Part shown: positions 16,472-55,647 of the stretch, piece by piece | Layout: every line of letters begins with the position of its first letter | Position numbering within the stretch: the first letter of the stretch is position 1 | Made by a program: the position numbers and the translations under genes | Assembly (NCBI RefSeq): GCF_029581275.1 | Contig: NZ_CP120742.1 | Span: 6,386,501 to 6,450,500, forward strand | DNA: 64,000 bases | Reading direction: 5' to 3' | Source: Micromonospora sp. WMMD1155 | Lineage (GTDB): Bacteria > Actinomycetota > Actinomycetes > Mycobacteriales > Micromonosporaceae | The notes under the pieces: generated by a model | Database searches by the model: none | The model's input: the letters and a program-made list of their open reading frames with translations, nothing else | What the model was told of the DNA's origin: nothing

Positions 16472-16939
16472 ATGCTGTCGCAGGTGAAGGGCTTGGCCCG
16501 GCATTTCACTGAGGAGACCCTTCGCGCGTACCTCCTCGATCGTTCGGTCCGTCGAGACGACGGCTGCCTGATCGTGCGCGGTTACGGCAGCCAGCGGGGC
16601 GTTTACCAGAAGCTCGCCGGTCGGGCTTGGGCGCACATCGCGGCGTACGTCGCCTTCGTCGGCACCTTCGATCCGGACCTTGATGTGCACCACCTCTGCG
16701 GGGTCGCAGACTGCATCGAGCCCACCCACCTGCGGCAGGTGAGCCACGCCGACACCTGCCGCAACCGCACGCAGCAGCCGCACTGCCGCAACGGGCACGA
16801 GCGGGAGATCGACCCCGCGAGCGGTCGGTACCGCAAGGTCTGCCGAGTGTGCAACAACGAGGCGCAGAAGAGGTGGCGCTCGCGTCAGGCCGCAGAGGTC
16901 GCCGCCGCCCGTGCCGCTTACGGCCGGCAGGCGGGCTGA
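16472..16939 (+). CDS. HNH endonuclease-like protein
   Basis: The 155-residue protein has a phage-type HNH core: DVHHLCGVADCIEPTHLRQV, with the HH, N-equivalent and H positions, followed by a zinc-binding set C-RNR-----HCRNGHE and VCRVCNN, in which CxxC pairs are visible. Such proteins nick DNA in phages or mobile elements, and many actinobacterial genomes have stray copies. The C-terminus is a basic Ala-rich helix. No other phage gene is near it, so it may be a relic. Confidence 0.8.
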   Translation: MLSQVKGLARHFTEETLRAYLLDRSVRRDDGCLIVRGYGSQRGVYQKLAGRAWAHIAAYVAFVGTFDPDLDVHHLCGVADCIEPTHLRQVSHADTCRNRTQQPHCRNGHEREIDPASGRYRKVCRVCNNEAQKRWRSRQAAEVAAARAAYGRQAG

Positions 16940-17120
16940 GGTTCGGCACCACGGTCTCGACCAGTTGCTTGACCCTCCCTCTCTACCCTGTCGACGAACC
17001 CGACCTCGAACCCCTCCGGCGAATCGGCGTGCCCAGGCGTGCTCTGCGGAGCCCCGATTGAGCTGGCCCTTCGGGGGTGGGCCAACTGACGTGACGACGT
17101 TCGGGTCGACGCGTTCCCAC

Positions 17121-17801
17121 TCATCTCGATCTTCGTCGGCCGATGTCGACCTTGGCGAGGACCGGTAGGGCCACATCCCGGTTGTCGATGACGACGTCCG
17201 CGCGTTCGTGAGGCGCGCAAGCGGCGAAGTACAGCCGCTGGCCGCCGACGTAGCGGCCGAGGCTCGGATGTTCGGGATCCGGATGCGAGCCGTCGCGTCG
17301 GGCCATCCGTGCCACGGTGACGGGAAACGGCGCGTCAAGGAAGATGGAGAAGTCCCAGAACGCCACCAGCTCGTCACGGTGCAGGAACAGCCCGTCGACG
17401 ATGAGTACGGTGCCGGGCGCCGCGGTCCGCCACGCAAGATCCAGGACCTCGTCTGTCCGAAGATCATGGGCGGCGGGACGGTATCGGCGTGAGCCCTCGT
17501 GACCGAACGGCTCCAGCACGTTGTGGACGAGGGCTTCGTAGTCGTAACTGTCGAGCCAGAAGCCTTCCGGCGAATCCCGGCCACGGCGATGCCGCACATC
17601 ACGACGGTGATGAAAGTCGTCCGCCGACACGTGCACGACATCACGTCCCCGGCCAGTCAGCAACGTGGCCAACTCGCCGGCGAACGTCGACTTGCCCACC
17701 CCGTCGACCCCGTCAACGGCCACCCGTACGCACTGTGGCGCTGGGTAGGTCGGAACCATGTCGGCGACATCGTCAAGCAATTGCCCCCGCACGCCGTGCA
17801 C
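17121..17801 (-). CDS. uridine kinase-like P-loop protein
   Basis: The 226-residue protein has Walker A VDGVDGVGKSTFAGELA, an acidic DDFHHRR motif as in uridine kinases, DGLFLHRDEL for the lid/substrate region and DAPFPVTVARMARRD. It is of the actinobacterial uridine kinase-like group and probably phosphorylates a nucleoside or similar small molecule. I chose GTG at 17801 because GGAGGAACGGC precedes it. Bases 17802-18073 upstream hold no convincing gene and turn AT-rich from about 17980. Confidence 0.82.
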   Translation of the reverse strand: MHGVRGQLLDDVADMVPTYPAPQCVRVAVDGVDGVGKSTFAGELATLLTGRGRDVVHVSADDFHHRRDVRHRRGRDSPEGFWLDSYDYEALVHNVLEPFGHEGSRRYRPAAHDLRTDEVLDLAWRTAAPGTVLIVDGLFLHRDELVAFWDFSIFLDAPFPVTVARMARRDGSHPDPEHPSLGRYVGGQRLYFAACAPHERADVVIDNRDVALPVLAKVDIGRRRSR

Positions 17802-18073
17802 GCCGTTCCTCCATCCATGACCAGAAGCGCAACACGCTCCACGGATCGAGGACGTCACTCTGCCAGACGCCTGCGTCAGATCCGTGGGACCGGCATCGGG
17901 TTCACCGGCTACAGCGGTCTGCACCACGTCCGTCGGGGCAGGACAGCGCCCCGTCTACTCACACCACACCAGTCTGATTCATTACGCCCAAGAACTGTCA
18001 TTATGATGCACGTCCGATGCGCCCCTTTTGTGGTGATGAATTATTGGATTGTTGTTACCGATAAACCAGAAAT

Positions 18074-18120
18074 GCTGGCGCGGCGACTCCCGGTGGTGTT
18101 TCGGAGGACGCCGCGCCAGC
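18074..18120 (-). terminator. hairpin of the SDR gene, now separated by the transposon
   Basis: GCTGGCGCGGCG (18074-18085) and CGCCGCGCCAGC (18109-18120) are perfect 12-bp arms, with an inner CTCC/GGAG pairing. On the minus strand ATTTCT follows the stem. Removing the transposon and one target copy puts this hairpin just downstream of the stop codon of the SDR gene now at 24087, which is where a terminator is expected. Confidence 0.65.
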
Positions 18121-18129
18121 GATTGCGAG

Positions 18130-18157
18130 TGTCGGGTCTCAGCGAGATTGGCGAGTC
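18130..18157 (+). repeat. left terminal inverted repeat of the transposon
   Basis: The terminus TGTC (18130-18133) is followed after 14 bp by TTGGCGAGTC (18148-18157). The right end repeats the same bases at the same spacing in reverse. The inner 10-mer is the first of several presumed TnsB-binding sites. Confidence 0.9.
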
Positions 18158-18179
18158 ACGCCTTGTCGGTGGCGGACTT

Positions 18180-18209
18180 GTGGCGAGTTCTCATCCAAGT
18201 TGGCGAGCT
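18180..18209 (+). repeat. paired transposase-site repeats, left end
   Basis: GTGGCGAGTT (18180-18189) and TTGGCGAGCT (18200-18209) are spaced by exactly 20 bp. They match the terminal 10-mer and, with the bases between (CTCATCC), recur almost unchanged at 18993-19022. They are probable TnsB-binding sites. Confidence 0.75.
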
Positions 18210-18261
18210 GCCCTCGGCGTGCCGGACCGGGCAGCACTCCGCCCTGCTCGAAAATCGACGT

Positions 18262-18984
18262 ATGACGACGACTTCTCTTGCGCGGCAGACGGCTGACTCC
18301 TCTCCTGCGCTGCACTACTACGTGGTCTATGACGATGCGGGCGAACCGGAAGGGCTGTTGGCAGAGGAGTTCCTGCTCGCGGCGGACCACTCGTCCGCCG
18401 GTCTGGTGAGTGGCGGGTGGAGCCAATCGGAGGGCCGCTGGTGCGACGCGTCGGCCACGAGCCGGCGCCTACGCGTTGACGCCGCGCTACGAAAGCGAGT
18501 GACGCCCGTTGGGCGGGCAGCGGCGGCGGCACTCTATTGGGACCTTTGCGGGACCGATCTGCCGGAAGAGGCCGCTCTGCGGGCTTGTTTCGGCGCACCG
18601 CCGGCTCTGCCGCCGTCCCCCTTGCGGCTGAGCGGGTCCGAGCCCAGGCCGGGGTTTCACGAGACGCGCGTCTACCGGATCCTGTTTGCCGACGAGTTGA
18701 GCCCGGACGGCCTCGCGGCACTCAGTGAGGCGTGGCAGATGCCGGTCACCGGCGACCTTGCGGATCCCGAGGTGCGCATCCTGGGCGCGGTGCGCCGTCA
18801 GGTCTCCGGCGATGCCTTCCGTTGGGATCTACGCCGAGTCGCTGGGGGTGCCGCCTGGGGGCTGGATGTGACCTGCGATCTCCTCGGGGACCGTGATGAG
18901 GCGGTCGGCGTGCTGCTGCGCGGTCTGACAACGCAGATGCGGCAGCAGGGGCTGATCCCCGTCACCGTCGACCGTTTCCGCTGA
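18262..18984 (+). CDS. transposon cargo protein of unknown function
   Basis: The product has 240 residues and no family I recognise. It starts MTTTSLARQTADSSPALHYYVVYD and is acidic in its first third (DDAGEPEGLLAEEFLLAADH), with many Trp, Asp and Arg residues later, and ends QGLIPVTVDRFR. No membrane segment, signal peptide or catalytic motif stands out. It lies between the left-end repeat pair and a second copy of that pair, so it was probably gained as a cassette. No good Shine-Dalgarno precedes the ATG. Defence or regulation is possible but unsupported. Confidence 0.65.
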   Translation: MTTTSLARQTADSSPALHYYVVYDDAGEPEGLLAEEFLLAADHSSAGLVSGGWSQSEGRWCDASATSRRLRVDAALRKRVTPVGRAAAAALYWDLCGTDLPEEAALRACFGAPPALPPSPLRLSGSEPRPGFHETRVYRILFADELSPDGLAALSEAWQMPVTGDLADPEVRILGAVRRQVSGDAFRWDLRRVAGGAAWGLDVTCDLLGDRDEAVGVLLRGLTTQMRQQGLIPVTVDRFR

Positions 18985-18992
18985 GTGAACGG

Positions 18993-19022
18993 GTGGCGAG
19001 TTCTCATCCGAGGTGGCGAGGA
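18993..19022 (+). repeat. second copy of the transposase-site pair, upstream of tnsA
   Basis: GTGGCGAGTT (18993-19002) and GTGGCGAGGA (19013-19022) keep the 20-bp spacing and the intervening CTCATCC of the left-end pair. The second site overlaps GAGGAG (19018-19023), the likely Shine-Dalgarno of tnsA, so transposase binding here could repress the operon. Confidence 0.7.
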
Positions 19023-19033
19023 GTGATGTCCCG

Positions 19034-19813
19034 ATGCAGCGACAGCGGCGTGAAGGGCTTCCGGGCCCGGACGAGAACCTTGAGGTGATCTACCTGGACG
19101 GCCGGGGCGTCGAGCAACGCGTCCCCTGGGGCTGGCTGCCGGAGGTGGTCGATGAGCTGGAGCGGCCGGTGCGGTCGTTTCCGTCGTATCGGGGTCAGCG
19201 CAACTTCCCGGGCTGGTACTGGTCGGCGACGATGGGCCGCCGGGTCGGTTTCGAGTCGTGGGTGGAACGCGACCACCTGGTCGCGCTGGATTTCGACCCG
19301 TCGGTGACGGGGATCGTGTCGCAGCCGTTCTGGCTGCTCTGGCCTTGTGAGGGCAAGCCGCGCCGGCACGCACCGGACTTCCTGGTGCGCATGGACGGCG
19401 GGGCGGTGCTGGTGCTGGATTCGCGGCCGCTGGAGCTGGTCGAGGACGCGGATCGGCAAGCGTTCGCGGTCACCGATCAGGCGTGCGGGTTGCTGGGCTG
19501 GCGGTATGCGGTCTGGGACCGGTTGGAGCCGGTGTTGGTGTCCAACCAGCGGTGGCTGGCTGGCTACCGGCATCCGAGGTGCTTCGACGCGCAGGTCGCC
19601 GGGCGTTTGCTGGCGGCGTTCGCCAAGCCGCGTCCGTTGATGGACGGTGCCGAGGCCGCGGGGGATCCGTTGGGCACGTTGCCGGTGCTCTATCACCTGC
19701 TCTGGCGGCGGGAGTTGGTGGCGGACCCGTCGCTGGTGCTCTCGCATCGCACGGTCGTGCAGGTCGCTCCGGTGACAGACCGGCTGGCAATGGTGGGTGA
19801 GCGGGATGGCTGA
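19034..19813 (+). CDS. tnsA: TnsA-like transposase endonuclease subunit
   Basis: The 259-residue protein fits the actinobacterial TnsA-like heteromeric transposase endonuclease family. The nuclease core shows Glu74/Glu78 in FESWVERDHL, Asp115 in HAPDFLVRMDG and Asp129-Ser-Arg131 in LVLDSRPLEL. E. coli TnsA ends this motif with a lysine (E-x-K type); here Arg131 takes its place. TnsA cuts the 5' strands at the ends while TnsB cuts the 3' strands. ATG at 19034 is preceded by GAGGAG. The stop overlaps the tnsB start by 8 bp. Confidence 0.85.
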   Translation: MQRQRREGLPGPDENLEVIYLDGRGVEQRVPWGWLPEVVDELERPVRSFPSYRGQRNFPGWYWSATMGRRVGFESWVERDHLVALDFDPSVTGIVSQPFWLLWPCEGKPRRHAPDFLVRMDGGAVLVLDSRPLELVEDADRQAFAVTDQACGLLGWRYAVWDRLEPVLVSNQRWLAGYRHPRCFDAQVAGRLLAAFAKPRPLMDGAEAAGDPLGTLPVLYHLLWRRELVADPSLVLSHRTVVQVAPVTDRLAMVGERDG

Positions 19814-21923
19814 GCGGCCGGGTGTGTTGCGGGTCAACGACCGGGTGATCTTCGCGGGCGCCACGCACACGGTGGTGGCGATCTCGGGTAACGCGATCCG
19901 GTTGCTGTCGGCGGCCGGGACGACGACCGTGGTGGCGTTGCCGTTCCTGCTGTCCGCTGTCGATTTCGAGCTCGTCGGCGCGGCGCCGGCGTCGCGGGTG
20001 GACCCGCACGGGCTGTTGGACGCGCTGCCCGCGCAGGCGTTGCAGGCGGCGCGGGACTGGGAGCGGCACCTGATCGAGGTCGAGACCGGGCTGCCTCCGA
20101 ACGCTGAGGCGGATGCGGTTGCGCGGCCTGAGTATGACCCGGAAGTTCATCCGCTGGCTGTTCGGGAGGCGGCGAAGGCCGCGGAGTTGACGGCGGCCGG
20201 GTCGAAGACGAGTCTGCGCACGGTCCAGCGGATGCGCCGCCGTTACCGCGAGCAGGGGTTATGGGGTCTGGTCGACGCCCGGCACGCACGCGCGGCGAAG
20301 CCGACGGGAAACGTCGACGCGCGGGTGGTCGCCGCAGCGGCTGCGGTGGTCGAGGCGCAGACAGGCACGTCGACGGGCACGAAGTCGCGGGCGATCCGGC
20401 AGATCCGGCAGCTTCTCGACGACGAGCACGGCGAGGGTGTGGTCGCTTTGCCGTCGCAGGCGACCTGCTACCGGCTGTTGGAGGCGTTGTCGGCGGGCCG
20501 GTATTCGTTCGGGTCGGCGGTGACGCGCCGGCAGACAGCGAACAAGCCGGTCGGGGCCTACGCCGCGACCACGGCGAGCCGCCCGGGTGAGCAGGTTCAG
20601 ATGGACAGCACCCCGCTGGACGTCATGGCGGTGATGGACGACGGGATCCTCGGCCGCGCGGAACTGGTGCTGGCGATCGACATCGCGACCCGCACGATCT
20701 GCGCCGGGGTGCTGCGTCCGGTCGGAGCGAAGGCGGTCGACGCGGCGTTGCTGCTGGCCCGGGTGACGGTCCCGGAGCCGATGCGGCCGGGCTGGGATGC
20801 CGCGCTGGCGATGTCGGCGTCACGGATCCCGCACCAGCGGCTGGTCTCGCTGGACGCGCGGATGGCCCTGGCCGCGGCCAAGCCGGTGATCGTCCCGGAC
20901 ACTGTCGTGATCGACCACGGCAAGGTGTTTCTGTCCGAGGTGTTCCTGCGCGCCGCCGACACCCTGGGCATCTCGGTGCAGCCGGCGCATCAGCAGACGC
21001 CGACGGACAAGGCGATCGTCGAGCGGACCTTCGAGTCGATCAACACGCTGTTCTGCCAGCACGTCGCCGGTTACACCGGACGCGACGTGACCCGCCGCGG
21101 CGCCGACGTCGCTGAGCGGGCCGTCTGGACACTACCTGACCTGCAAGAACTGTTTGACGAGTGGGTGATCGCCGGGTGGCAGTCGCGCCCGCATGACGGA
21201 TTGCGGCACCCGTTCAATCCCGCGCAGGCGGCCTCGCCGAACGACGCCTACGCGGCCCTGGTCGCCGCGGCCGGCTACGTCCCAGTCGCGTTGACCGGTG
21301 AGGACTACATCGAGCTGCTGCCGGCGGACTGGCGAGCCATCGGTGACGGCGGCATCCAGATCGACTACCGCACCTACAACTGCGCCGAGCTGCGCCCTTA
21401 CGCCCGCAAGAACTCGGGCGTCGCCAGCCGGGCCGGGCGGTGGGAGGTCCACTACGACCCCTACGACGTCTCGCGGATCTGGGTCCGCAACCACCACCGG
21501 GGCGGCTGGATCACCGTCCCCTGGACTCACCACAGCGTGGTCGGGCAGCCGTTCGCCGACTTCACCTGGCGCGCGTCGCGCAAGGTCGCCGCCCAGCGTG
21601 GTCTGGACGACACCAACGAGATGGCCGTCTCGATCGTCCTTGCCGCCTTGCTGCGCCGCGCCGAGGAAGGCCCCGGCAGCCTCCGGGCGCTGGCGCGCAC
21701 CCGCACCGCTCATGCGATGGACAACCACCTGCCGCCGGAGCTGACCACCGCGGCGCTGGCCGGCCCCGCGCTCGCCGAACCCGTGCCACCGGCCGACCTT
21801 CCAGTTACACCCGGCCCGGAGCCCGAGCCGGAACTGGAGGAACGGCCGCAGGTTCTGGTCGGCGAGGTCGTGCCGTTCGCGTTGTTCGACCCGTTCGCCG
21901 ACGACCTGGAGGCGGGCCGGTGA
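19806..21923 (+). CDS. tnsB: DDE transposase, TnsB/TniA family
   Basis: The 705-residue protein has an N-terminal helix-turn-helix (SKTSLRTVQRMRRRYREQGL), then the integrase core with Asp267 in QMDSTPLDVMAV, Asp370 in VVIDHGKVFLSE and Glu406 in DKAIVERTFESI, giving a 35-residue D-to-E gap (DD35E). A Mu-type C-terminal beta-barrel follows (IQIDYRTYNCAELRPYA, WEVHYDPYDVSRIWVRN). It binds the end repeats and joins 3' ends to target DNA. ATG at 19806 was chosen; GTG at 19797 is also possible. The C-terminal tail is acidic and Pro-rich, as expected for contact with TniB/TnsC. Confidence 0.95.
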   Translation: MAERPGVLRVNDRVIFAGATHTVVAISGNAIRLLSAAGTTTVVALPFLLSAVDFELVGAAPASRVDPHGLLDALPAQALQAARDWERHLIEVETGLPPNAEADAVARPEYDPEVHPLAVREAAKAAELTAAGSKTSLRTVQRMRRRYREQGLWGLVDARHARAAKPTGNVDARVVAAAAAVVEAQTGTSTGTKSRAIRQIRQLLDDEHGEGVVALPSQATCYRLLEALSAGRYSFGSAVTRRQTANKPVGAYAATTASRPGEQVQMDSTPLDVMAVMDDGILGRAELVLAIDIATRTICAGVLRPVGAKAVDAALLLARVTVPEPMRPGWDAALAMSASRIPHQRLVSLDARMALAAAKPVIVPDTVVIDHGKVFLSEVFLRAADTLGISVQPAHQQTPTDKAIVERTFESINTLFCQHVAGYTGRDVTRRGADVAERAVWTLPDLQELFDEWVIAGWQSRPHDGLRHPFNPAQAASPNDAYAALVAAAGYVPVALTGEDYIELLPADWRAIGDGGIQIDYRTYNCAELRPYARKNSGVASRAGRWEVHYDPYDVSRIWVRNHHRGGWITVPWTHHSVVGQPFADFTWRASRKVAAQRGLDDTNEMAVSIVLAALLRRAEEGPGSLRALARTRTAHAMDNHLPPELTTAALAGPALAEPVPPADLPVTPGPEPEPELEERPQVLVGEVVPFALFDPFADDLEAGR

Positions 21924-22981
21924 GCACGCTGCCGATCGACGCCTTGGGCGATCTCCCGTCCGAGGTTCGTCACCCGCTGGCCACCAAGCAGGGCTGGGCC
22001 ACGTTCGTCGCCCAGATCAACCCCGAACCGCCGCGGCTGCTGCCCTCCGAGGATTGGAAGCGGCTGACCGCCTTCGAGCGGGACCTCTACAACGAGGCCC
22101 GCCAGGACTACCACTCGGCGTTGCTGCTGGTCGCGACCCCGGACATCAAGAGGATCATCCACACCGGCACGAAGCTGGTCGTGAACAACCGCGGCAAGCA
22201 GCTCGGTCGGCGCGGTCTGATCGTCTCCGGGGCCAGCGGCACCGGCAAGTCGACCTCGATCACCCAGCTGGGCAAGAAGTTCCAGATCGACCTGGAGCGG
22301 CGCAATCCCGGCGTCCGCGATCGCATCCCGGTCGTCTATATCGTGGTCCCACCCGACGCGACCCCGAAGATGCTGGCCACCGAGATGGCGGTCTTCCTCG
22401 GGTTGCCGACCTCGCCGCGCGACAGCCCCCAGTCGATCACCCATACCGTCGCCTCGGTGATGCGCCGGGTCGGCACCGGCATGGTCCTGGTCGACGAGAT
22501 CCACCGCATCGACCTGACCACCCGGCAAGGCAAGAACGCCTCCGACCAGCTGAAATACTTCTTCGACACGATCAGCGCCACGTTCGTTTACGCCGGCCTG
22601 GACCTCGACGAGCACGGCATGTTCTCCGGCATGCGGGGCCGGCAGATCGCCGGCCGGTTCATCCCGGTCAACACCATGCCGTTCACTCACCGCACCGCCC
22701 AGGACAAGCAGGACTGGGCCAAGCTCGTCGCGGCGATGGAACACGCCCTGCGGCTGCACCGCCACCAGAGCGGGACCCTCGTTGAGCAGGCCGCCTACCT
22801 TCATGACCGGACCGGCGGCATGATCGGCAGCCTCGACCAGCTCATCCACGAAGCCGCCAACGACGCCATCACCGACGGCACCGAGAAGATCACCAAGGCG
22901 CATCTCGACGCAGTCATCCTGGACATCGCCGCTCAGGCCCAGTTCACCCCGCCCCGCCAGCGCCGGGCAGGTCAGCGATGA
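21920..22981 (+). CDS. tniB: AAA+ ATPase of the transposon, TniB/TnsC family
   Basis: The 353-residue protein has Walker A GASGTGKST (residues 104-112) and Walker B MVLVDEIHRI with Asp192/Glu193. RQIAGRFIPVNTMPF and RTGGMIGSLDQLIHEAA match the TniB family. It polymerises on target DNA and passes target information from TniQ to the transposase. GTG at 21920 overlaps the tnsB stop (GTGA), so it is co-translated. Confidence 0.94.
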   Translation: MSTLPIDALGDLPSEVRHPLATKQGWATFVAQINPEPPRLLPSEDWKRLTAFERDLYNEARQDYHSALLLVATPDIKRIIHTGTKLVVNNRGKQLGRRGLIVSGASGTGKSTSITQLGKKFQIDLERRNPGVRDRIPVVYIVVPPDATPKMLATEMAVFLGLPTSPRDSPQSITHTVASVMRRVGTGMVLVDEIHRIDLTTRQGKNASDQLKYFFDTISATFVYAGLDLDEHGMFSGMRGRQIAGRFIPVNTMPFTHRTAQDKQDWAKLVAAMEHALRLHRHQSGTLVEQAAYLHDRTGGMIGSLDQLIHEAANDAITDGTEKITKAHLDAVILDIAAQAQFTPPRQRRAGQR

Positions 22982-23987
22982 AAACGTGGCAGCAGAGCGC
23001 CCAGCAACTCCCCGTCCAGGTCAGACCGGTCCGGGGCGAGACGACGATCTCTTTCGTCTTCCGGCTCGCCGAGGCCAACGAACTCGCCCGGCCCACGCTC
23101 CTACTGGGCGCCCTCGGCCTGCCCAACCGGGGCCTGACCCAGTTCCTAATCGACGACTACGAAGTCCGGCTCAACGCCCTGGCCCTGCAACGGCTGGAGA
23201 CCTTCACCGGCACGTCCCCGGGCTATCTGAAACGGTGCTGCCCGCACTGCACCACCCGGGCGACGCGCTGCCCGAGGAAATCCCCGCCACGCGCATCGTC
23301 AAAGCATGGAACCTGCGCGACCACTGCGACCACTGCACTGCCCGGCTCCCCGGCCGCCGAGCAGTCAAAGTTCACCCCTTGTATTTCCCCGTGCTCTGCC
23401 GAAAGCACCGTCGCTGGCTAGACACCAAGACCGACCTCACGAACACCCCAGAGATCCTCACCGCCCACCGCCGCCATGGCCGACTGCTCGCCGCCACGGG
23501 CGATCGCCAGTGGACCTACCAGCAGCTTCACCGCGCCACCTGGATCGTCGGCGAGTGGGCACGCCTCAGCTTCCGCACCCTCCCCCGGCTCCACGACATC
23601 TGGCAGACCAGAGGCAACGTCCTCCCCGGGCATCACAGCCCGTTCAGGCCCTCCGACCTGCTCGTCTATCCCGAAGCCGTCGGGCTGGCCGAGATCTTCT
23701 GCGATCTCGAATGGCGCCGCCACGTCGCGATGGTCCGAGACCTGGAGATGACGAACTTCTACAAACGCATCGCTGCACGCCTCAACCAGCCCCGCGACCT
23801 CGCCGACTGGCTCGGACGCTCCGTGATGCGCCTCCGCAAGCGAGGCGGCTACGACTGGGTGCCCAACCCGCTCCAGCACTGGATATCCCAGCACCGCAAC
23901 ACCCACAAGAAGACCCGCACCGAGTTCTACGAACGGCTCAACGGCTTCGGACGGACCCCTTTTCCGGAAACTCGCCACTTCAAATGA
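22978..23987 (+). pseudogene. tniQ: TniQ family targeting protein, one-base frameshift
   Basis: The N-terminus (VRPVRGETTISFVFRLAEAN and GALGLPNRGLTQFLIDDYE) is read from ATG 22978, which overlaps the tniB stop (ATGA). The rest, with a zinc motif CDHCTARL and VLCRKHRRWLD, lies one frame back. Adding one G in the run at 23234-23235 would give YLKRVLPAL and restore a 336-residue protein. TniQ normally recognises the target site. As read, translation leaves the TniQ frame and stops at 23421. No canonical slippery heptamer is present, so this looks like a mutation or a read error. Confidence 0.85.
23969..23978 (-). repeat. inner transposase site, right end
   Basis: AACTCGCCAC is the reverse complement of GTGGCGAGTT found at the left end. 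It lies within the last codons of tniQ, about 97 bp from the right terminus. Confidence 0.7.
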
Positions 23988-24047
23988 GGAACGATGACCA
24001 GTGACCACACCGAACCTAACTGGCGAACCGCAGTTCAACCCGGCTCA

Positions 24048-24075
24048 GACTCGCCAACTAAAACGAGGAGAGACA
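24048..24075 (-). repeat. right terminal inverted repeat of the transposon
   Basis: On the minus strand it reads TGTC from 24075, then 14 bp, then TTGGCGAGTC (24057-24048), matching the left end in sequence and spacing. The target duplicate GCGAG follows at 24076-24080. Confidence 0.9.
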
Positions 24076-24086
24076 GCGAGTGGCGG

Positions 24087-24866
24087 TCAGGCTGTCCGGT
24101 AGCGCGTGGCCAGCTCGGGGCTCTGCGCGGCGAACGCGGCGAGGTCGGCTCGGAAGACCGCGTCAAGGAGACCGGCGTCCTCGACACCCGGGGCGCAGAC
24201 GGTCTCCCCCAGTTCCAGGCCACGCAGGCTGGCGGTGACGACGTCGTCGGCCGTCATGCGAGGCACCCTGCTCATGTCCAGGCCCTGACGCTCGTGGAAC
24301 TCGGTGGCCACCACCCCCGGGCACACGACCTGCACGGTGACCCCGGTGCCCTCCAGCTCCGCGCTCAGGGTCTGCGAGATGGCGACGAGGTAGGCCAGGC
24401 TGCCGCCGTAGACGGCGCGGCGGGGCATCTGGGAGTGCGGGGCGGGGCCGCTGAAGGCGATCATGCCGGCCACGTTGATGATGGTGCCTTCACCCCGCTC
24501 CTGCATACCCGCGACCACGGCGCGAGTGAGCATGGTGGGGGCGAGGACCTTGACGTTGACCAGCTCGGCGGCCTTCTCGGCGGGGAGGTCGGCGAGCGGC
24601 ATGTAGTGGGCGACCCCCGCGTTGTTGACGAGCATGGTCAGCGGCTCGGTGGCGCAGACCTCGGCGACCGCCTCGATCCCCGCCGTGGTGGACAGGTCGA
24701 CGGCGACCGTCGTGACCGTGACCTCGGGGTGGGCGGCGGCCAACTCCTCCAGGCGGTCCTTGCGTCGGCCCACGATCACCAGGTCGTAGCCGTCGGCGGC
24801 CAGGCGTTCGGCGAAGGCCCTGCCGATCCCGGAGGTGGCGCCGGTGACGAGCGCGAGCTTGCTCAC
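24087..24866 (-). CDS. short-chain dehydrogenase/reductase
   Basis: The 259-residue SDR has the cofactor motif VTGATSGIGRAFAERLA, VGRRKDRLEEL after strand 2 (suggesting NADP), NNAGVAHYMPL and the catalytic Tyr/Lys region RAVYGGSLAYLVAIS. The last is unusual: the expected YxxxK reads YGGSLAYL, so the usual lysine is not where expected. GTG at 24866 follows GGAAG. It is divergent from an XRE regulator that likely controls it. The transposon inserted 6 bp downstream of its stop codon. Confidence 0.88.
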   Translation of the reverse strand: MSKLALVTGATSGIGRAFAERLAADGYDLVIVGRRKDRLEELAAAHPEVTVTTVAVDLSTTAGIEAVAEVCATEPLTMLVNNAGVAHYMPLADLPAEKAAELVNVKVLAPTMLTRAVVAGMQERGEGTIINVAGMIAFSGPAPHSQMPRRAVYGGSLAYLVAISQTLSAELEGTGVTVQVVCPGVVATEFHERQGLDMSRVPRMTADDVVTASLRGLELGETVCAPGVEDAGLLDAVFRADLAAFAAQSPELATRYRTA

Positions 24867-24993
24867 TGTTCTTCCTTCTTCCTGTGGTCGGCCGCCGCGG
24901 TCATCGCTCGGCGCCCGTGCGCTCGATGCGCCGGCACGAGGTGATTGTCGTGCTTTCTCATGCCCCAAGCCTGCGAAACGGCCGGGCGAGCAG

Positions 24994-25033
24994 CCAGACG
25001 TCTGGTCTTCCTGGGAACGCCGGTACCAGGAAG
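24994..25033. promoter_or_regulatory. candidate operators between SDR and XRE genes
   Basis: CCAGACGTCTGG (24994-25005) is a perfect 12-bp palindrome. Two bases later CTTCCTGG (25007-25014) and CCAGGAAG (25026-25033) form an 8-bp inverted repeat with an 11-bp spacer. Both lie in the 197-bp divergent promoter, nearer the regulator, and could be its binding sites. Confidence 0.5.
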
Positions 25034-47337: not shown

Positions 47338-48140
47338 GCCATCGCCTTCCGCTGCGTGATCAGGGCGTGCACCAGGTAACTGGCCACCTCGCCGGGTGTG
47401 GTGCCCCGACCGAAGATCCGGTCCACACCCAACTCGTCGGTCATCGTCTCGTCGAACCGGGGACCACCGACGATCAGCAGCGGCCGCTTGCCCGCCGGCA
47501 TCGCCTCCCGGAACGCCGCGGACATCTCCCGGGTGTTGTGCAGGTGCGCGTCGCGTTGCGTGACGACCTGCGACACCAGCACCGCGTCGGCCTTCTCCAC
47601 CCGGGCCATCTCCACCAACTCCGGCACACTGACCTGCGCACCCATGTTGGTGACCTTCAACTCCCGGTAGTACTCCAGGCCCTTCTCCCCCGCGATGCCC
47701 TTGACGTTGAGGATCGCGTCGATGCCCACGGTGTGCGCGTCGGTGCCGATGCACGCACCGACGACCGACAGCTTGCGCCGCAACCGCTGCTTGATGACCG
47801 TGTTGACGTCCTTCGCCGACAACAGGGCGAAGTCGCGTTCCACCACCTGCACCGCGTTCAGGTCGACCAGGTGGTTGACCCGCCCGTACACCACGAAGAA
47901 CGTGAACCCGTCGCCCATCGGTTTGGCGTGCACCACCATCGCCGGGTCGATGCCCATCTTGCTGGCCAGCTGCACCGCCGCGCCCTCGGCCCGCTTGTCG
48001 TGCGACACCGGCAGGGTGAACGACACCTGCACCATCCCGTCACCGGTGGTGTCCCCGTACGGCCGCACGATCTGCTTGCTCACGCCGCCGCTGCGCGCCG
48101 GACCGCTGTGCTGGCCGGTTCGCTCGCTCCGCTCGCTCAC
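47334..48140 (-). CDS. kamE: lysine 5,6-aminomutase beta subunit
   Basis: The 268-residue subunit binds adenosylcobalamin and PLP. It has IVRPYGDTTGDGMVQVSFTL, the B12 motif GTDAHTVG with His136 and the PLP lysine in LNVKG (Lys147). The 11-residue gap between them equals that between His133 and Lys144 of the Clostridium enzyme. The GTG at 48140 overlaps the kamD stop but puts an odd SERSERTG leader, encoded by an intergenic repeat, in front; GTG at 48083 is an alternative start. Confidence 0.93.
   Translation of the reverse strand: MSERSERTGQHSGPARSGGVSKQIVRPYGDTTGDGMVQVSFTLPVSHDKRAEGAAVQLASKMGIDPAMVVHAKPMGDGFTFFVVYGRVNHLVDLNAVQVVERDFALLSAKDVNTVIKQRLRRKLSVVGACIGTDAHTVGIDAILNVKGIAGEKGLEYYRELKVTNMGAQVSVPELVEMARVEKADAVLVSQVVTQRDAHLHNTREMSAAFREAMPAGKRPLLIVGGPRFDETMTDELGVDRIFGRGTTPGEVASYLVHALITQRKAMA
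48115..48140 (-). repeat. intergenic GTGAGCGAGCG repeat, copy 1
   Basis: The 26-bp segment at the kamD-kamE junction reads GTGAGCGAGCGGAGCGAGCG and continues AACC. It is an imperfect palindrome and nearly matches a second copy at 49720-49745. It forms the start codon of kamE. Confidence 0.65.
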
Positions 48141-49693
48141 GCCGCCGCCTCCAGGATGTCGGTGGCCGGGTTGTAGTAGTCGGCCTCGTGCGCGGCGACC
48201 CCGTCGAGGCCCTTGCCCCGGTCCGCCGGCCGCTTCATGATCCCGAACGTGCCCTCGGCGATCGCCGTCAGCAACGTCTGCTCCCCGATGCGCTCCAACA
48301 GGTCCAGCGCCTCACCGAGCACCTGGTCGGCGCGCCGGCGGATGAACCCGCCCGGCGCCGGCACGAAGTCCTCGTGCAGCCCACCGGCCGCACCCAGCAC
48401 GTACCGCACGTTCTGCAGGGCGATGTCCCGGTCCGACAACCACGGCGTCACCACCGCCTCGGTCATCATCCCCACCAGTAGGATGCCCTGACCGGTCAGC
48501 GCCCCGGCCAGGTTGAAGAACCCGTCGAGCAGGTTGCCCCGGAACACGTCGCCGGTCATGTGCTTCGTCGGCGGCATCCACTTCAACGGCGCGTCCGGGA
48601 ACAACTCCCGCGCCAGCAGGGCGTGCGCCAACTCCAACCGGAACGACTCCGGCACCTCCGGGTTGATCTCGAACGCGTGCCCCAACCCCAACTGCCAGTC
48701 CGCCAACCCCGCCTCGTGCGCGAAGAACTCGTTGAGCAGCTGCGACACCGTCACCGTGTGCGCCTCGTCGACCGCGTCCGCGGTGGTCAGGTAGTTGTCC
48801 TCACCGGTGTTGATGATGATCCCGGCCCGGGCGTGCACCTGCCGGGAGAACCGCTGGTCGACGAACGTGCGCACCGGGTTGATGTCGCGGAACAGGATCC
48901 CGTACATCGAGTCGTTGAGCATCATGTCGAGGCGTTCCAACCCGGCCAGGGTCGCCATCTCCGGCATGCACAACCCGGACGCGTAGTTGGTCAACCGCAC
49001 GTAACGGCCCACCTCCTTGGACGACTCGTCCAACGCCGCGCGCATCAACCGGAAGTTCTCCTGCGTGGCGTACGTGCCGGCGAACCCCTCCCGGGTCGCA
49101 CCCTCGGGGACGTAGTCCAACAACGACTGCCCGGTGGAACGGATCACCGCGATCACGTCCGCGCCCGCCCGCGCCGCCGCCTGCGCCTGCGGGATGTCCT
49201 CGTAGATGTCCCCCGTCGCCACGATCAGGTAGATCCACGGCCGCTGCGCCGGGTCACCGTGCCGCTTGACGAGACGGTCCCGCTCCGCGCGCCGACGGTC
49301 GATGCGCCGGATGCCCGACCCGACCGCCCTACGCGCCGCGCTGCGGGCCGCCGTCGCCGCCCGCCCGGCCGGTACGCCGAAGCGCACCGACCCGGCCGCG
49401 GCCTTCTGCGCCAGCAACGTCACGTCGGTGAGGCCCTCACGCGCCAGGGCGTCGAACACCGGAACCGCCACCCCGTGCCCCAGACCGACGTCCGCGGCGA
49501 CCGCGTCGACGAGCCGGTTCACCCACGGAATACCGTCCGGATCGGCGCCGGTCACCCCGGCCAGCCGCAGCACCGCCCGCTCCACCGACACCGTCGTGTG
49601 GCTGCGCGCCAGGTCCACCACCGGCTGCCCGGCCCGACGCGCCAACTCCCGCGCCCGCGCCACCAGCACCGGATCGAGATCAAGCTTGCTCAT
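48137..49693 (-). CDS. kamD: lysine 5,6-aminomutase alpha subunit
   Basis: The 518-residue protein is the large TIM-barrel subunit that moves the 6-amino group of beta-lysine (or D-lysine) to C5. It has WIYLIVATGDIYEDIPQAQA, DVIAVIRSTGQSLLDYVPEG, TYATQENFRLMRAALDE, YASGLCMPEMA and KWMPPTKHMTGDVF, all typical of KamD. ATG at 49693 opens with MSKLDLDPVLVARARELARR. The product is 3,5-diaminohexanoate. Confidence 0.95.
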   Translation of the reverse strand: MSKLDLDPVLVARARELARRAGQPVVDLARSHTTVSVERAVLRLAGVTGADPDGIPWVNRLVDAVAADVGLGHGVAVPVFDALAREGLTDVTLLAQKAAAGSVRFGVPAGRAATAARSAARRAVGSGIRRIDRRRAERDRLVKRHGDPAQRPWIYLIVATGDIYEDIPQAQAAARAGADVIAVIRSTGQSLLDYVPEGATREGFAGTYATQENFRLMRAALDESSKEVGRYVRLTNYASGLCMPEMATLAGLERLDMMLNDSMYGILFRDINPVRTFVDQRFSRQVHARAGIIINTGEDNYLTTADAVDEAHTVTVSQLLNEFFAHEAGLADWQLGLGHAFEINPEVPESFRLELAHALLARELFPDAPLKWMPPTKHMTGDVFRGNLLDGFFNLAGALTGQGILLVGMMTEAVVTPWLSDRDIALQNVRYVLGAAGGLHEDFVPAPGGFIRRRADQVLGEALDLLERIGEQTLLTAIAEGTFGIMKRPADRGKGLDGVAAHEADYYNPATDILEAAA

Positions 49694-49719
49694 CGACCAT
49701 CCACTCGTTCCTGTGCCTG

Positions 49720-49745
49720 ATGGTTCGCTCGCCGCGCTCGCTCAC
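49720..49745 (-). repeat. intergenic GTGAGCGAGCG repeat, copy 2
   Basis: It reads GTGAGCGAGCGCGGCGAGCG then AACC at the end of the amidohydrolase gene, supplying its TGA stop. It differs from copy 1 at only a few positions over 26 bp. Confidence 0.65.
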
Positions 49746-51307
49746 GACGACCCTTCCTCGTAGATGACCTCACCGCGCAGCACCAGACGCCGACACACCG
49801 GCAACGGCGTCGGGTCGTCCGGACCCCGCAGCTCCGCGTCCTCGGCCAGCAACACCGGCAGACCCCGCTCCACTCCCGCCGGCGTCGACCACACCGCGAA
49901 CGTCGCCGGCGCACCCAAGGCGAGAACCCCCTCGACATCCAGGTGCACCGCCCGCCACCCACCCCGGGTGTGCGCGGCGAACGCCGAACGCACACCCATG
50001 CGCTGCGCCGGGTTGTGGTGCGCCGCCGCCGCCCGCACCGACCCCCACGGGTCCAGCGGCGTCACCGGCGAATCCGACCCGAACGCCAACGCCACACCCA
50101 CCGAGTGCATCGCACCCATCGGGTTCGACTCCAACGACCGGTCCAACCCCAACCGCGCCTCGTACATCCGGCCCGCGCCACCCCACAACCGGTCGAACGC
50201 CGGCTGCATGCTCGCCACGACCCCGTACTCCACGAACCGCGCGATCAACCGCTTGTTCATGATCTCCGCGTGCTCGATCCGGTGCCGGGCCGCGCGCAAC
50301 CGCTCCAAACCCACCGTCTCGGCCGCCGCCGCGAACCCGTCGAGCACCGTGCCGATCGCCGCGTCCCCGATCGCGTGGAACCCGCCCTGCATGCCGTGCG
50401 CCGCACAGTCCAGCAGGTGATCACGCACCTGCTCCGCCGTCAGGTACCCGTGCCCACACCCGTCGCCGTCACCGTACGCCTGCGACACGTGCGCCGTACG
50501 CGACCCCAACGCCCCATCGGCGAACAGGTCACCACCCGCGCCCACCGCACCCAACTCCCGGGCCCGCGCCGCACCACCCAACTCACCCCAGTACCCGTAC
50601 ACCTCCGGCACCCCCGCACCGGAGACGCCCAGCAACCCGGTGAAGTCCTCCTCGTCGGAGATGTCCGGGCCACCACACTCGTGCACCGCGGCGATCCCCA
50701 GCGACGCCGCGTGCGACAGGGCCACCCGCTGCGCGGCGACCCGCTGCGCCCGACTCACCGACCCCTGCGCCGCCGCCCGCACCACGTGGTGCGCGTCGCG
50801 CCGCAACCACCCCGACGCGTCGAACCCGGCCGCCTGCGCCGCCTGCGGACACGCCGCCAGCAGCGCCGACGACACCAACGCCGAATGGATCGACGCCTGC
50901 GACAGGTACACCCGCCGCCCACCGGCCGCCCGATCCAACGCCGCCGCGTCCGGCAACGACGGATCCGACCAACCCGACTCGTCCCAGCCGTGCCCCAACA
51001 CCACCGCGTCCGCCGGCAGACCCGCCGCGAACCCGGCCACCGCGTCCAACAACTGCGCCGCCGACCGCACCCCGGACAACTCCAGCCCGGACAACGCCAA
51101 CCCCGTGTCGGTGGCGTGCACATGCGCGTCGACGAACGCCGGCGTCACCAACGCCCCGTCCAGGTCCACCACCCGGTCGGCCGGCGGCGCGTCACCGTCG
51201 GTCCCCAACCAGGTGATCCGCCCACCGGACACCAGCAGCGCGGTAGCACTCGGCTCGGCGGGGCAGTACAGCACGCCGCCGCGGTACAACGTCGAGGGGT
51301 TCGTCAT
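49742..51307 (-). CDS. YtcJ-like amidohydrolase
   Basis: The 521-residue metal hydrolase has the first metal motif VDAHVHATDTGLALSG, a later HAIGDAAIG, RIEHAEIMNKRLI and the last aspartate in AFGSDSPVTPLDPWGSV, as in amidohydrolase family 3 (YtcJ). It hydrolyses amides or formamides; the substrate is unknown. Its place between kdd and kamD suggests a role in feeding or cleaning the lysine pathway, for example deacylating an N-acyl lysine, but nothing in the sequence fixes that. Confidence 0.88.
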   Translation of the reverse strand: MTNPSTLYRGGVLYCPAEPSATALLVSGGRITWLGTDGDAPPADRVVDLDGALVTPAFVDAHVHATDTGLALSGLELSGVRSAAQLLDAVAGFAAGLPADAVVLGHGWDESGWSDPSLPDAAALDRAAGGRRVYLSQASIHSALVSSALLAACPQAAQAAGFDASGWLRRDAHHVVRAAAQGSVSRAQRVAAQRVALSHAASLGIAAVHECGGPDISDEEDFTGLLGVSGAGVPEVYGYWGELGGAARARELGAVGAGGDLFADGALGSRTAHVSQAYGDGDGCGHGYLTAEQVRDHLLDCAAHGMQGGFHAIGDAAIGTVLDGFAAAAETVGLERLRAARHRIEHAEIMNKRLIARFVEYGVVASMQPAFDRLWGGAGRMYEARLGLDRSLESNPMGAMHSVGVALAFGSDSPVTPLDPWGSVRAAAAHHNPAQRMGVRSAFAAHTRGGWRAVHLDVEGVLALGAPATFAVWSTPAGVERGLPVLLAEDAELRGPDDPTPLPVCRRLVLRGEVIYEEGSS

Positions 51308-51311
51308 GACC

Positions 51312-52373
51312 TCAGTCTGCCGCGATCCGCGCCGCGAACAGCCGACGCACCCCCGGCTCGGCGCGCAGCAGCCCCAACGCCAACTCCGCGTGCCCCGGCA
51401 CGTACCCGTTGCCCACCAGCATCGTCACGTCCGCAGCCAACCCCTCCGCGCCCAACGCCGCCGCCGAGAAGCTCGTCGCCATCGAGAAGAAGATCACCGT
51501 GCCGCCGTCCGCGGTGGCCAACACCGCACCGTGCTCACACCCCGGCACGTCCACGCACACCACTGTCACGTCCGCCGGCGCGCCCAGGGCGGTGGTCACC
51601 GCCGTGGACAACCCCACCGGGTCCCGCGCGTCGGCCACCGCCACCACCGACGCCAACCCGGCCGCCGTCAGCGCGTCCCGCTCCGCCGCCACCGGAACCA
51701 CCCCGACGGTACGCGCGGCACCCGCCCGCCGCGCCGCCGCGAGCGACAGCGACCCGCTCTTGCCCGCCCCACCGATCACCGCGACCCGCACCGGCGTCGG
51801 GTCACCGACCCGACGACGGTCCTCGACGTAGCGCGACACCACCCGCGCGGTCAACGCGGGCGCCCCACACACGTCCAGCACGGCCAGGGACAACTGCGGG
51901 TCCTCGTCGTCGGGCAGCACCGCGGCGATGGAACGGGCGAACAGGATCGCCCACCCGTCACAGGGCACCTGCTCACTGCGCCCGTCCCAGCGGGCCAGCC
52001 CATCGGTGATCACCAGCGGCGTCAGCGTCAACGACACCAGGGTCGCCACCCGCTCGCCCACCTTCAGCCCCAGCGGGGACCGCCGACCGGCCTCCTCGAC
52101 CGTGCCGATCAACATCCCGCCGGACCCGGTCACCGGGTTCTGCATCTTCCCCCGGGTGGTGATGATCTCCAGCACCTCGGCGCGGACCGCGTCGCCGTCA
52201 CCGCCGTGCTTCTCCGACAACTGCCGGAAACTCGCCGCGTCCAGGTTCAGCCGCTGCACCCGGATCCGCACCTCGTTGGGCGCGATCTGCGCCGACGCGT
52301 CCAGGCGCCAGGCCGCCTGCGGCAGCACCCCCGCCGGTTGCACGACGCGGTGCAGCCCCACCGGTGACGTCAC
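51312..52373 (-). CDS. kdd: L-erythro-3,5-diaminohexanoate dehydrogenase
   Basis: The 353-residue enzyme oxidises 3,5-diaminohexanoate to 5-amino-3-oxohexanoate with NAD. It has NEVRIRVQRLNLDAASFRQL, the segment GKMQNPVTGSGGMLIGTVEE, which is diagnostic for Kdd, and the Rossmann motif VAVIGGAGKSGSLSLAAARR. It is the first gene of the minus-strand kam operon and 4 bp from the amidohydrolase. Confidence 0.92.
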   Translation of the reverse strand: MTSPVGLHRVVQPAGVLPQAAWRLDASAQIAPNEVRIRVQRLNLDAASFRQLSEKHGGDGDAVRAEVLEIITTRGKMQNPVTGSGGMLIGTVEEAGRRSPLGLKVGERVATLVSLTLTPLVITDGLARWDGRSEQVPCDGWAILFARSIAAVLPDDEDPQLSLAVLDVCGAPALTARVVSRYVEDRRRVGDPTPVRVAVIGGAGKSGSLSLAAARRAGAARTVGVVPVAAERDALTAAGLASVVAVADARDPVGLSTAVTTALGAPADVTVVCVDVPGCEHGAVLATADGGTVIFFSMATSFSAAALGAEGLAADVTMLVGNGYVPGHAELALGLLRAEPGVRRLFAARIAAD

Positions 52374-52514
52374 GCCAACCCTCCCCTGCCCAGCCGCCCG
52401 AAGCCCCGGTCAAGGCTCGCGTAACGGGAAAACTTACGGCAGACTAGTTTCTGTACCGAATATTTTCCAGTAGCCTTCGGGCCCGTCGATCAACAGCAAC
52501 ACCGAGGAGGGGCC
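52374..52514. promoter_or_regulatory. divergent promoter region of the lysine cluster
   Basis: This 141-bp gap separates kdd (minus) from kamA (plus). Its centre (52431-52480) is clearly AT-rich (GAATATTTTCC), as expected for promoters. It is too short for a cobalamin riboswitch and I see no B12 box. GAGGAGG lies just before the kamA GTG. Confidence 0.5.
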
Positions 52515-53906
52515 GTGACCCAGACCATCCCGCACCCCCGTCACGCCCCGGTCGCCACACCGACCGCCGGGCAGCCCTACGAATACCACCGCCGCCCCCT
52601 GGTCGAACCCGACTGGACCCGCTTCCCCGGCTGGCGCCACATCACCCGCGAGCAGTGGGAATCCGCCCAGTGGCAACGCGTCAACTGCGTCAAGAACATC
52701 AAGCAGCTCCGCGCCGTCCTCGGTGACCTCGTCGACGAGAGCTTCTACGCCGACCTCGAGGCCGACCAGAAGGCCCTGGCCACCATGTCCATGCTGGTGC
52801 CACCACAGATGATCAACACGATGGTGCCGGACGTGCCCCCCACCACCGAGGCGCTGCTCGCCGACCCCATCCGCCGCTACATGATTCCCGTCGCCTCCGA
52901 CCGACGCACCGACTGGCCCTCACACCCCTACGCCAGCCGCGACAGCCTCCACGAGCACGACATGTGGGTCGCCGAAGGTCTCACCCACCGCTACCCCACC
53001 AAGGTCCTCGCCGAACTGCTCTCCACCTGCCCCCAGTACTGCGGGCACTGCACCCGGATGGACCTCGTCGGCAACTCCACCCCCGCCGTCGACAAACTCA
53101 AACTCACCCTCAAGCCCGTCGACCGCTACGACGCCCACATCGCCTACCTCAAGGCCCACCCCGGCGTCCGCGACGTCGTCGTCTCCGGCGGAGACGTCGC
53201 CAACGTCCCCTGGCGCAACCTCGAGTCGTACCTCATGCGCCTACTCGAACTGGAGACGGTCCGCGACATCCGCCTCGCCACCAAGGCCCTCATGGGCCTC
53301 CCCCAGCACTGGCTGCAACCCGACGTGGTCGAAGGTCTGGAACGCGTCGCCCGCACCGCCGCCCGCCGCGGCGTCAACCTCGCCATCCACACCCACGTCA
53401 ACCACGCCCAGTCCCTCACCCCACTGGTCGCCAAGGCCGCCCAGACCGCCCTCGACGTCGGCGTCCGCGACGTCCGCAACCAGGGCGTCCTCATGCGCGG
53501 CGTCAACGCCACCACCCCGGAACTGCTCGACCTCTGCTTCGCCCTCCAAGGCGAGGCCGGGATCCTGCCGTACTACTTCTACATGTGCGACATGATCCCC
53601 AACGCCGAACACTGGCGCGTCCCGGTCTGGCACGCCCAGCAACTCCAGCACGACATCATGGGATACCTCCCCGGCTACGCCACCCCCCGCATCGTCTGCG
53701 ACGTCCCCTTCGTCGGTAAGCGCTGGGTGCACATGCTCACCGACTACGACCGCGAGCGCGGCATCTCCTACTGGACCAAGAACTACCGCACCTCCATCGA
53801 GTCCGCCGACCTGGAGGCGCTCAACAAGCGCTACGCCTACTACGACCCGATCGACACGCTGCCCGCCGACGGCCGGCAGTGGTGGACCGACCACCGCGAC
53901 GACTGA
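52515..53906 (+). CDS. kamA: lysine 2,3-aminomutase (radical SAM, KamA family)
   Basis: The 463-residue enzyme converts L-lysine to beta-lysine using [4Fe-4S], SAM and PLP. The cluster cysteines are 172, 176 and 179 in CPQYCGHCTRMD. VVVSGGDVANVPW follows, where clostridial enzymes have SGGDPL, and PRIVCDVPFVGKRWVH holds the probable PLP lysine. The substrate could be glutamate, as some KamA relatives use it, but the neighbours favour lysine. GTG at 52515 has GAGGAGG upstream. Divergence from kdd suggests shared control. Confidence 0.9.
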   Translation: MTQTIPHPRHAPVATPTAGQPYEYHRRPLVEPDWTRFPGWRHITREQWESAQWQRVNCVKNIKQLRAVLGDLVDESFYADLEADQKALATMSMLVPPQMINTMVPDVPPTTEALLADPIRRYMIPVASDRRTDWPSHPYASRDSLHEHDMWVAEGLTHRYPTKVLAELLSTCPQYCGHCTRMDLVGNSTPAVDKLKLTLKPVDRYDAHIAYLKAHPGVRDVVVSGGDVANVPWRNLESYLMRLLELETVRDIRLATKALMGLPQHWLQPDVVEGLERVARTAARRGVNLAIHTHVNHAQSLTPLVAKAAQTALDVGVRDVRNQGVLMRGVNATTPELLDLCFALQGEAGILPYYFYMCDMIPNAEHWRVPVWHAQQLQHDIMGYLPGYATPRIVCDVPFVGKRWVHMLTDYDRERGISYWTKNYRTSIESADLEALNKRYAYYDPIDTLPADGRQWWTDHRDD

Positions 53907-53914
53907 CCGCACCG

Positions 53915-53943
53915 ACGGCGACACCCCCGGGGGGTGTCGCCGT
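53915..53943. terminator. terminator of kamA
   Basis: ACGGCGACACCCCC (53915-53928) pairs with 53930-53943 to form a 14-bp stem, followed by TTTCC. It lies between kamA and the convergent gene at 53950. Confidence 0.9.
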
Positions 53944-53949
53944 TTTCCG

Positions 53950-55583: not shown

Positions 55584-55647
55584 TCCATGTCCGGCGGGAC
55601 CTCAACCGTGACAGCCCACCCGACACGCGCCCGCCGAACCGACAGTC

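Follow-up and report, generated by a model that had tools for sequence, protein, structure and literature searches.

The DNA examined here (the window) is a stretch of 64,000 nucleotides from the genome of Micromonospora sp. WMMD1155 (NZ_CP120742.1; G000 in our genome set, a single contig of 7.34 Mb in which the window begins at C1:6386501). It carries one full-length copy of a Tn7-like transposon, which comprises tnsA, tnsB, tniB, and tniQ genes and a single cargo gene and lies beside a conserved site linked to dif (Table 1). A first reading of this DNA, made without database searches (the sequence-only reading), had recognized a Tn7/Tn5053-like element that includes TnsA, has exact ends, and is bordered by a 5-bp duplication, which our analysis bears out; it had missed the target specificity. 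We consider it likely that the element, a member of a widespread actinobacterial family of Tn7-like transposons, has a dif-linked attachment site, probably recognized via a bound host protein.

Table 1. Features of the element and of the adjoining site, in window coordinates
Feature	Position	Strand	Remarks
Conserved dif-linked site (proposed attachment site)	17982..18074	+	Model R1, 67.1 bits, E 6.4e-19; G000:C1:6404482-6404574
Dif-like core	17987..18008	+	Half-sites around 6-bp spacer CTGTCA (17995-18000)
Second dyad of the site	18038..18074	.	AT-rich, degenerate here; reverse-strand half match to R1, E 0.0013; alignment A1
Hairpin between site and element	18074..18120	.	19-nt arms; present without element in G017
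Target duplication, left copy	18125..18129	+	GCGAG, direct read
Element	18130-24075		5946 bp; inverted TGTC-N14-TTGGCGAGTC ends, GCGAG on each side
Left end	18130..18207	+	TGTC tip; TnsB-type repeats at 18149, 18181, 18201
Cargo gene	18262..18984	+	723 bp, 240 aa; host-type gene
Truncated inner left end, beside tnsA	18993..19020	+	28 nt, 93% identical to 18180-18207
tnsA-like endonuclease	19013..19813	+	Start uncertain; NCBIfam NF033179, 290 bits (cut-off 110)
tnsB, DDE transposase	19806..21923	+	Start uncertain; Mu-transpos_C; matches Tn6677 TnsB
tniB/tnsC AAA+ ATPase	21920..22981	+	PF05621, E 8e-17; matches Tn6677 TnsC
tniQ, split across two frames	22978..23987	+	Break at ~23225-23250
Right end	24048..24075	-	Direct read and end-pair script
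Target duplication, right copy	24076..24080	+	GCGAG, direct read

The inverted ends and the GCGAG duplication claimed by the sequence-only reading were confirmed by direct read, the left terminus being TGTCGGGTCTCAGCGAGATTGGCGAGTC and the right one, inverted, TGTCTCTCCTCGTTTTAGTTGGCGAGTC; the limits it had proposed (18125..24080) include the target-site duplications (TSDs). A script ranking equal 5-mers that flank inverted TG.../...CA ends around the transposition genes placed this end pair first, narrowly (18/34 end bases alike, 17 for the runner-up). GCGAG also occurs within the end repeat, so that the TSD on its own is weaker evidence than 1/1024. The pattern TGTC-N14-TTGGCGAG has three matches in the window's genome, two of which are the element's ends, and occurs in 41/160 genomes of the genus, as does its reversed control (row count), that is, at chance level. 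The ends are beyond chance through the combination of end pair, TSD, subterminal repeats, and relatives. Matching 5-bp TSDs and TGTC ends were found in six of the nine site-linked elements described below (the window's, G062, G050c2, G184, G071, and G089), and no matching TSD was found for G069a, G111, and G142 within the fetched stretches.

The gene order tnsA-tnsB-tniB-tniQ was confirmed by profile matches. TnsA falls within the family annotated as 'TnsA-like heteromeric transposase endonuclease subunit'. TnsA is expected to have an E/D/K active site that gives 5'-strand cleavage. The window's protein reads E ... HAPDF ... LDSRP, with Arg where Lys is expected, the motif across the TnsA copies reads E...HAPD...(V/L)D(V/C/S)R, and the Lys position in 27 copies is occupied by Arg in 20, Leu in two, and Lys in one, four being unread by the script. 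TnsB residues D266, D369, and E405, invariant across 16 aligned copies including the window's, probably form the DDE triad. A DDE TnsB with an adjacent TnsC-type ATPase, TGT/ACA ends with subterminal repeats, and a 5-bp TSD together identify the element as Tn7-like.

The tniQ gene lies in two frames, the first of which gives a weak TniQ match (18.4 bits, below the cut-off of 27). Because the homologs of two relatives, G062 and G069, read in one frame (in G062 a single frame of 335 aa, with PF06527 above cut-off), the window's gene carries a frameshift and this copy is probably defective, unless the break is an assembly error; 'complete', as the sequence-only reading called the transposon, is therefore not an apt term. 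Programmed frameshifting is conceivable, though two relatives read tniQ in one frame. With tniQ frameshifted, the window's copy is probably unable to target by itself. Among the scanned open reading frames (ORFs), which fill most of the 5.9 kb, Pfam and NCBIfam gave no recombinase or resolvase match (res sites were not searched) and no Cas protein, and the listed repeats of the element include no CRISPR array; the element lacks these hallmarks of CRISPR-associated transposons.

The family is not the small branch it had been taken for. Related TnsB proteins were found in 24/160 genomes of the genus, the window's included (E<=1e-50), and in 39/354 genomes of the family Micromonosporaceae, from 10/44 genera including its own (E<=1e-120), and the GTDB contig collection contains 350 stretches coding for a TnsB relative, the best 79 loci coming from Streptomyces, Nocardia, Rhodococcus, Mycolicibacterium, and others. 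One genome, G132, holds four copies of 5158 bp with identical 120-bp ends and four different TSDs, which indicates that the family is mobile. A TnsB clade dominated by Actinobacteria has been reported (Benler et al. 2021, PMC8649781), and the window's element may be assigned to clade 2 of that study.

The site beside the element was recognized from the flanks of delimited elements, several of which adjoin the same AT-rich sequence (GC 0.43 in the window's copy, 0.72 for the window). We aligned 28 copies, the window's among them (alignment A1), and built from them a sequence-only model, R1. A simple core pattern is present in 66/160 genomes of the genus and its reversed control in none; the window's core differs from it by two mismatches and is not among the 66. 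R1 matches 159/160 genomes, the window's included, the sole genome without a match being a fragmented assembly (G113). Across the family, 243/300 genomes in 27/44 genera have a match; for the other genera alone the row count is 138/194. Most genomes listed give one or two matches, and since in all eight R1-positive element sources the second one is a half match to the reverse strand of the very same site, we take the site to be single-copy. Rfam gave no match up to E 0.1 within 17000-25000, and the possibility that the site is an Rfam RNA was dropped.

Two dyads lie within these ~95 bp, the second being longer than that of the core. We compared 45 cores, comprising the 28 from A1 and 17 of 20 fetched from other genera (three were missed by the script): ATAA is present in 42 and TTATG in 44, counts that are partly by construction, as the gathering patterns already require most of these bases, and the 6-bp spacer is mostly CWGTCA. 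The left arm of the window's core has AGAA for the usual ATAA. The same bases adjoining the spacer (ATAA, TTATG) are the best kept in targets of the IS1202 type (PMC10132070). Pairing between the outer half-sites exceeds that of shuffled controls in the 17 copies from other genera (174/238 cells, a level reached by 1/2000 shuffles). A dif pattern, which agrees with the dif of Frankia given by Kono et al. 2011 (PMC3025954), was found in 157/160 genomes of the genus. Among the 113 genomes in which both were seen on one contig (split-contig and unlisted ones being excluded), the site lies at a median distance of 42.4 kb from dif (range 3.4-198 kb), and the two have the same relative arrangement in 101/113; dif of the window's genome, at 6361661, is ~43 kb away. 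Half-sites around a 6-bp spacer, the ATAA/TTATG arms, apparent single copy, and the link to the terminus together make the site dif-like.

Nine elements from three clades, which separate in a FastTree tree of 97 TnsB sequences, adjoin the site, with the left end facing it every time. Distances were measured from the spacer centre to the left end. In clade i, where the site reads toward the element, they are 132 bp for the window, 125 for G062, 119 for G069a, 121 for G050c2, and 125 for G184. Clade ii lies on the opposite side of the site at 51 (G071), 51 (G089), and 53 bp (G111), and clade iii is represented by G142 at 99 bp. Relics consisting of solo left ends reproduce the distances of their clades: 123 bp in G077 and 130 bp in G020 for clade i, and 53 bp in G069 for clade ii. 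R1 finds the site in 8/51 fetched element sources. The ninth element, G184, comes from another genus and was read by eye, its site being diverged with arms changed on both sides; absent from the tree, it was assigned to clade i by its ends and by 91% identity over TnsB residues 1-301. All five clade-i copies of the host family with a readable left flank are at the site, the contig of G113a being too short. Two other candidate targets were ruled out: flanking G062, G069, and G077 no hairpin like that at 18074-18120 is seen, while the 95-bp site is shared, and the 3' end of an SDR gene has matches in G135 and five other genomes without an element there.

The site in G069 (L035) is flanked twice, by a clade i element on one side and a clade ii solo left end on the other. 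G050c2 has ~9 kb between left end and tnsA. Insertions of 1.7 to 5.7 kb interrupt tniB in L034 (G050c2), L041 (G144), and L057 (G050b).

We propose that TnsB would bind the TTGGCGAG-type repeats found at either end and, together with the divergent TnsA, would excise the element, and that TniB (TnsC) and a small TniQ would select the target, insertion yielding the 5-bp duplication. The target would be the apparently single-copy, dif-like site near the replication terminus, used at a set distance with the left end toward it. A host protein on the dyads of the site, such as a recombinase of the Xer type or some other dimeric protein, may mark it and be sensed by TniQ or TniB. Three at-site relatives, one per clade, have a full-length TniQ above cut-off; these proteins are small (310-345 aa, with starts chosen by us), and the TniQs of the three clades are 27-30% identical to one another. 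Their convergence on one site would favour a bound host protein over direct reading of the DNA, as would the analogies with Tn5053 at res and with IS1202, whose transposase may, its authors suggest, interact with XerC at dif (PMC10132070). We regard it as possible, if somewhat improbable, that TniQ itself reads the site, as TnsD does at glmS, with no host protein involved; the narrow distances within each clade and the full-length TniQs agree with this, whereas such dissimilar proteins reaching one site from both sides, and their small size, speak against it. According to a suggestion by Faure et al. 2023 (PMC10293859), a small TniQ that lacks a large C-terminal extension is characteristic of elements relying on additional target selectors. 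Extending the host-protein reading, we tentatively propose, while leaning slightly against it, that Micromonosporaceae chromosomes have, ~40 kb from dif, a further dif-like site that serves in recombination or as a landmark and has its own DNA-binding host protein, and that at least three actinobacterial Tn7-like lineages use the complex as a beacon, as Tn5053 reportedly does with resolvase-bound res.

Comparison with known systems places the transposon itself among familiar ones. Like Tn7 and Tn7-like elements of the actinobacterial TnsB clade, it has genes for TnsA, TnsB, TnsC/TniB, and TniQ (the last frameshifted in this copy), multiple TnsB-type sites within TGT...ACA ends, a 5-bp duplication, and attachment-site insertion in one orientation. 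It differs in its small size, 5.9 kb with one cargo gene compared with median lengths of 14 to 29 kb (Benler et al. 2021, PMC8649781), in the Arg replacing the TnsA Lys, and in a target that is a non-coding, dif-linked site. With Tn5053/Tn402 it shares TniB, a single TniQ, and insertion beside a recombinase-type site. Members of that family have TGTC ends and no TnsA, and carry the resolvase TniR with a res site inside the element. The window's element has TnsA, shows no resolvase in the ORFs scanned, and occupies a chromosomal target, not a plasmid res, whereas Tn5053/Tn402 elements have been called 'res site hunters' and reportedly target resolvase-bound res sites (PMC11406308, citing Minakhina 1999). 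The ISAjo2 type of the IS1202 family resembles it in the TnsB-like transposase, TGT/ACA ends, 5-bp TSD, and constant placement, in both orientation and distance, relative to a dif-like site (PMC10132070). However, the ISAjo2 type is a one-gene insertion sequence located 5 bp from dif/pdif (PMC10132070), while the site-linked elements described here encode TnsA/TniB/TniQ and are found 51-132 bp away from a second, dif-like site. Among the titles and abstract openings listed we found no description of this site or of a dif-linked Tn7-like target, which is weak evidence because subscription papers were mostly not covered by the search. The best reading is that of a transposon of known kind with a target of a new kind.

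The left part of the element raises the question of whether it moved as one unit. Where the sequence-only reading had seen almost no cargo, there is one gene, with the outer left end on one side of it and a truncated second one on the other. Its product has no match in Pfam, NCBIfam, PADLOC, or PHROG, and its family is found in 80/160 genomes of the genus, the window's included and some as fragments, which rules out a transposon-specific gene. In some other species a gene of this family adjoins the site; in G008 it starts directly there with no element in between. G069a has a second left-end-like array ~250 bp further inward. We infer that the cargo may be a neighbour of the attachment site captured between two (duplicated) left ends. 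It seems unlikely that an earlier insertion left the outer left end behind and that the 18130-24075 unit with its GCGAG copies is a chance composite. The truncated second left end beside tnsA would fit such a history, as would the narrow ranking of the end pair, the presence of GCGAG in the end repeat, and G077, which has the same left-end/cargo junction (86.8% identity over 18130-18987) but, over the 19 kb fetched, lacks transposase genes. Against it, the TSD matches and the inverted ends lie at the exact outer tips, the spacer between site and end in G077 is unlike the window's, and the latter spacer occurs in G017 with neither element nor cargo; the two spacers favour insertion of the composite as one unit.

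The sequence-only reading had also expected related strains with an empty site joining 18129 to 24081 and would have taken their absence as refutation. This came close to being the case: among the 160 genomes, with at most four candidates scored per genome, no convincing contiguous junction was listed, and the weak match of G065 across it (73%, E 7e-5) is no better than many background matches. Each flank does occur singly without the element, the left one to 18127 in G017 and the right one from 24084 in G135, which to us suggests local rearrangement.

Relatives at other targets offer a wider comparison. A Kribbella element (L317), from the sister group of clade iii, has its left end 65 bp from dif itself. 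Streptomyces elements of two separate TnsB clades (L265, L269, L288, and L296) stand, with their left-end side, beside one shared palindrome, which we take to resemble a TetR operator, and Nocardia elements of two TnsB clades (L261 and L313) stand likewise beside another host-specific palindrome, for which a copy-number count was uninformative, the pattern having a fixed 6-base spacer and the site one of seven. These placements hint at one rule. We examined the flanks of 43 elements, comprising 15 genus copies and 28 named loci with at least 17/26 matching end bases, some ends possibly being wrong picks; one element that did not have 100 bp on both sides was dropped. Left flanks are AT-richer than right ones in 34/42 (p 7e-6), and a palindrome stands out by shuffling in 13/42 left and 5/42 right flanks; the paired palindrome test over the 42 is not significant (Wilcoxon 0.077), and a general law of insertion always beside a palindrome was rejected. 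We think it very improbable that the site is no more than a common regulatory or operator region and that the elements simply prefer AT-rich intergenic DNA: the flank composition, the palindrome counts, and the Streptomyces group would suit this, but the palindrome test does not, the gene content around the site varies from genome to genome, three clades use a single locus per genome at narrow distances, and the site is linked to dif.

Several observations weigh against a dif-linked attachment site as proposed here, or narrow its scope. R1 matches only three of the 79 best loci, all three of the host family, and outside Micromonosporaceae only other flanks are seen, so that the site is not the universal target of the transposon family. 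No R1 match was obtained in 43/51 fetched sources, which include that of G184, L034 (adjoining an R1-positive source), and some short contigs. G069b and the four G132 copies are located elsewhere, and dif lies ~430 bp from the left end in L324 and ~0.8 kb before tnsA in L326, where ends were not found. The outer half-sites of the 28 model copies do not pair above shuffles (219/392 cells, a level reached by 874/2000 shuffles), and the genes around the site vary, the best-shared cluster occurring at 13/27 loci (the clusters were not scanned for recombinases). Not all nine elements are healthy, tnsB being split in G069a and only partial in G184. Finally, because Arg replaces the expected TnsA Lys here and in most relatives read, excision by cut-and-paste appears less secure than the sequence-only reading had stated.

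The site would provide an attachment site for actinobacterial Tn7-like transposons, whose likely TnsB clade has no experimentally characterized member according to Benler et al. 2021 (PMC8649781). It also draws attention to an unexplained but conserved landmark in the DNA close to the terminus in a family of antibiotic-producing bacteria. With three clades of differing TniQs at one site and at set distances, it can be tested directly if TniQ senses the DNA or a host protein on it, and such a docking site in the chromosome would help gene insertion in Micromonospora and Salinispora.

Two further features of the window were noted. An ORF for an HNH endonuclease (phrog_826, E 1.2e-20) lies at 16472-16939, and a similar ORF is found near the site in several genomes. 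GC skew reaches -0.21 and -0.25 in two 4-kb bins at 48000-56000 and ranges from -0.07 to +0.06 elsewhere.

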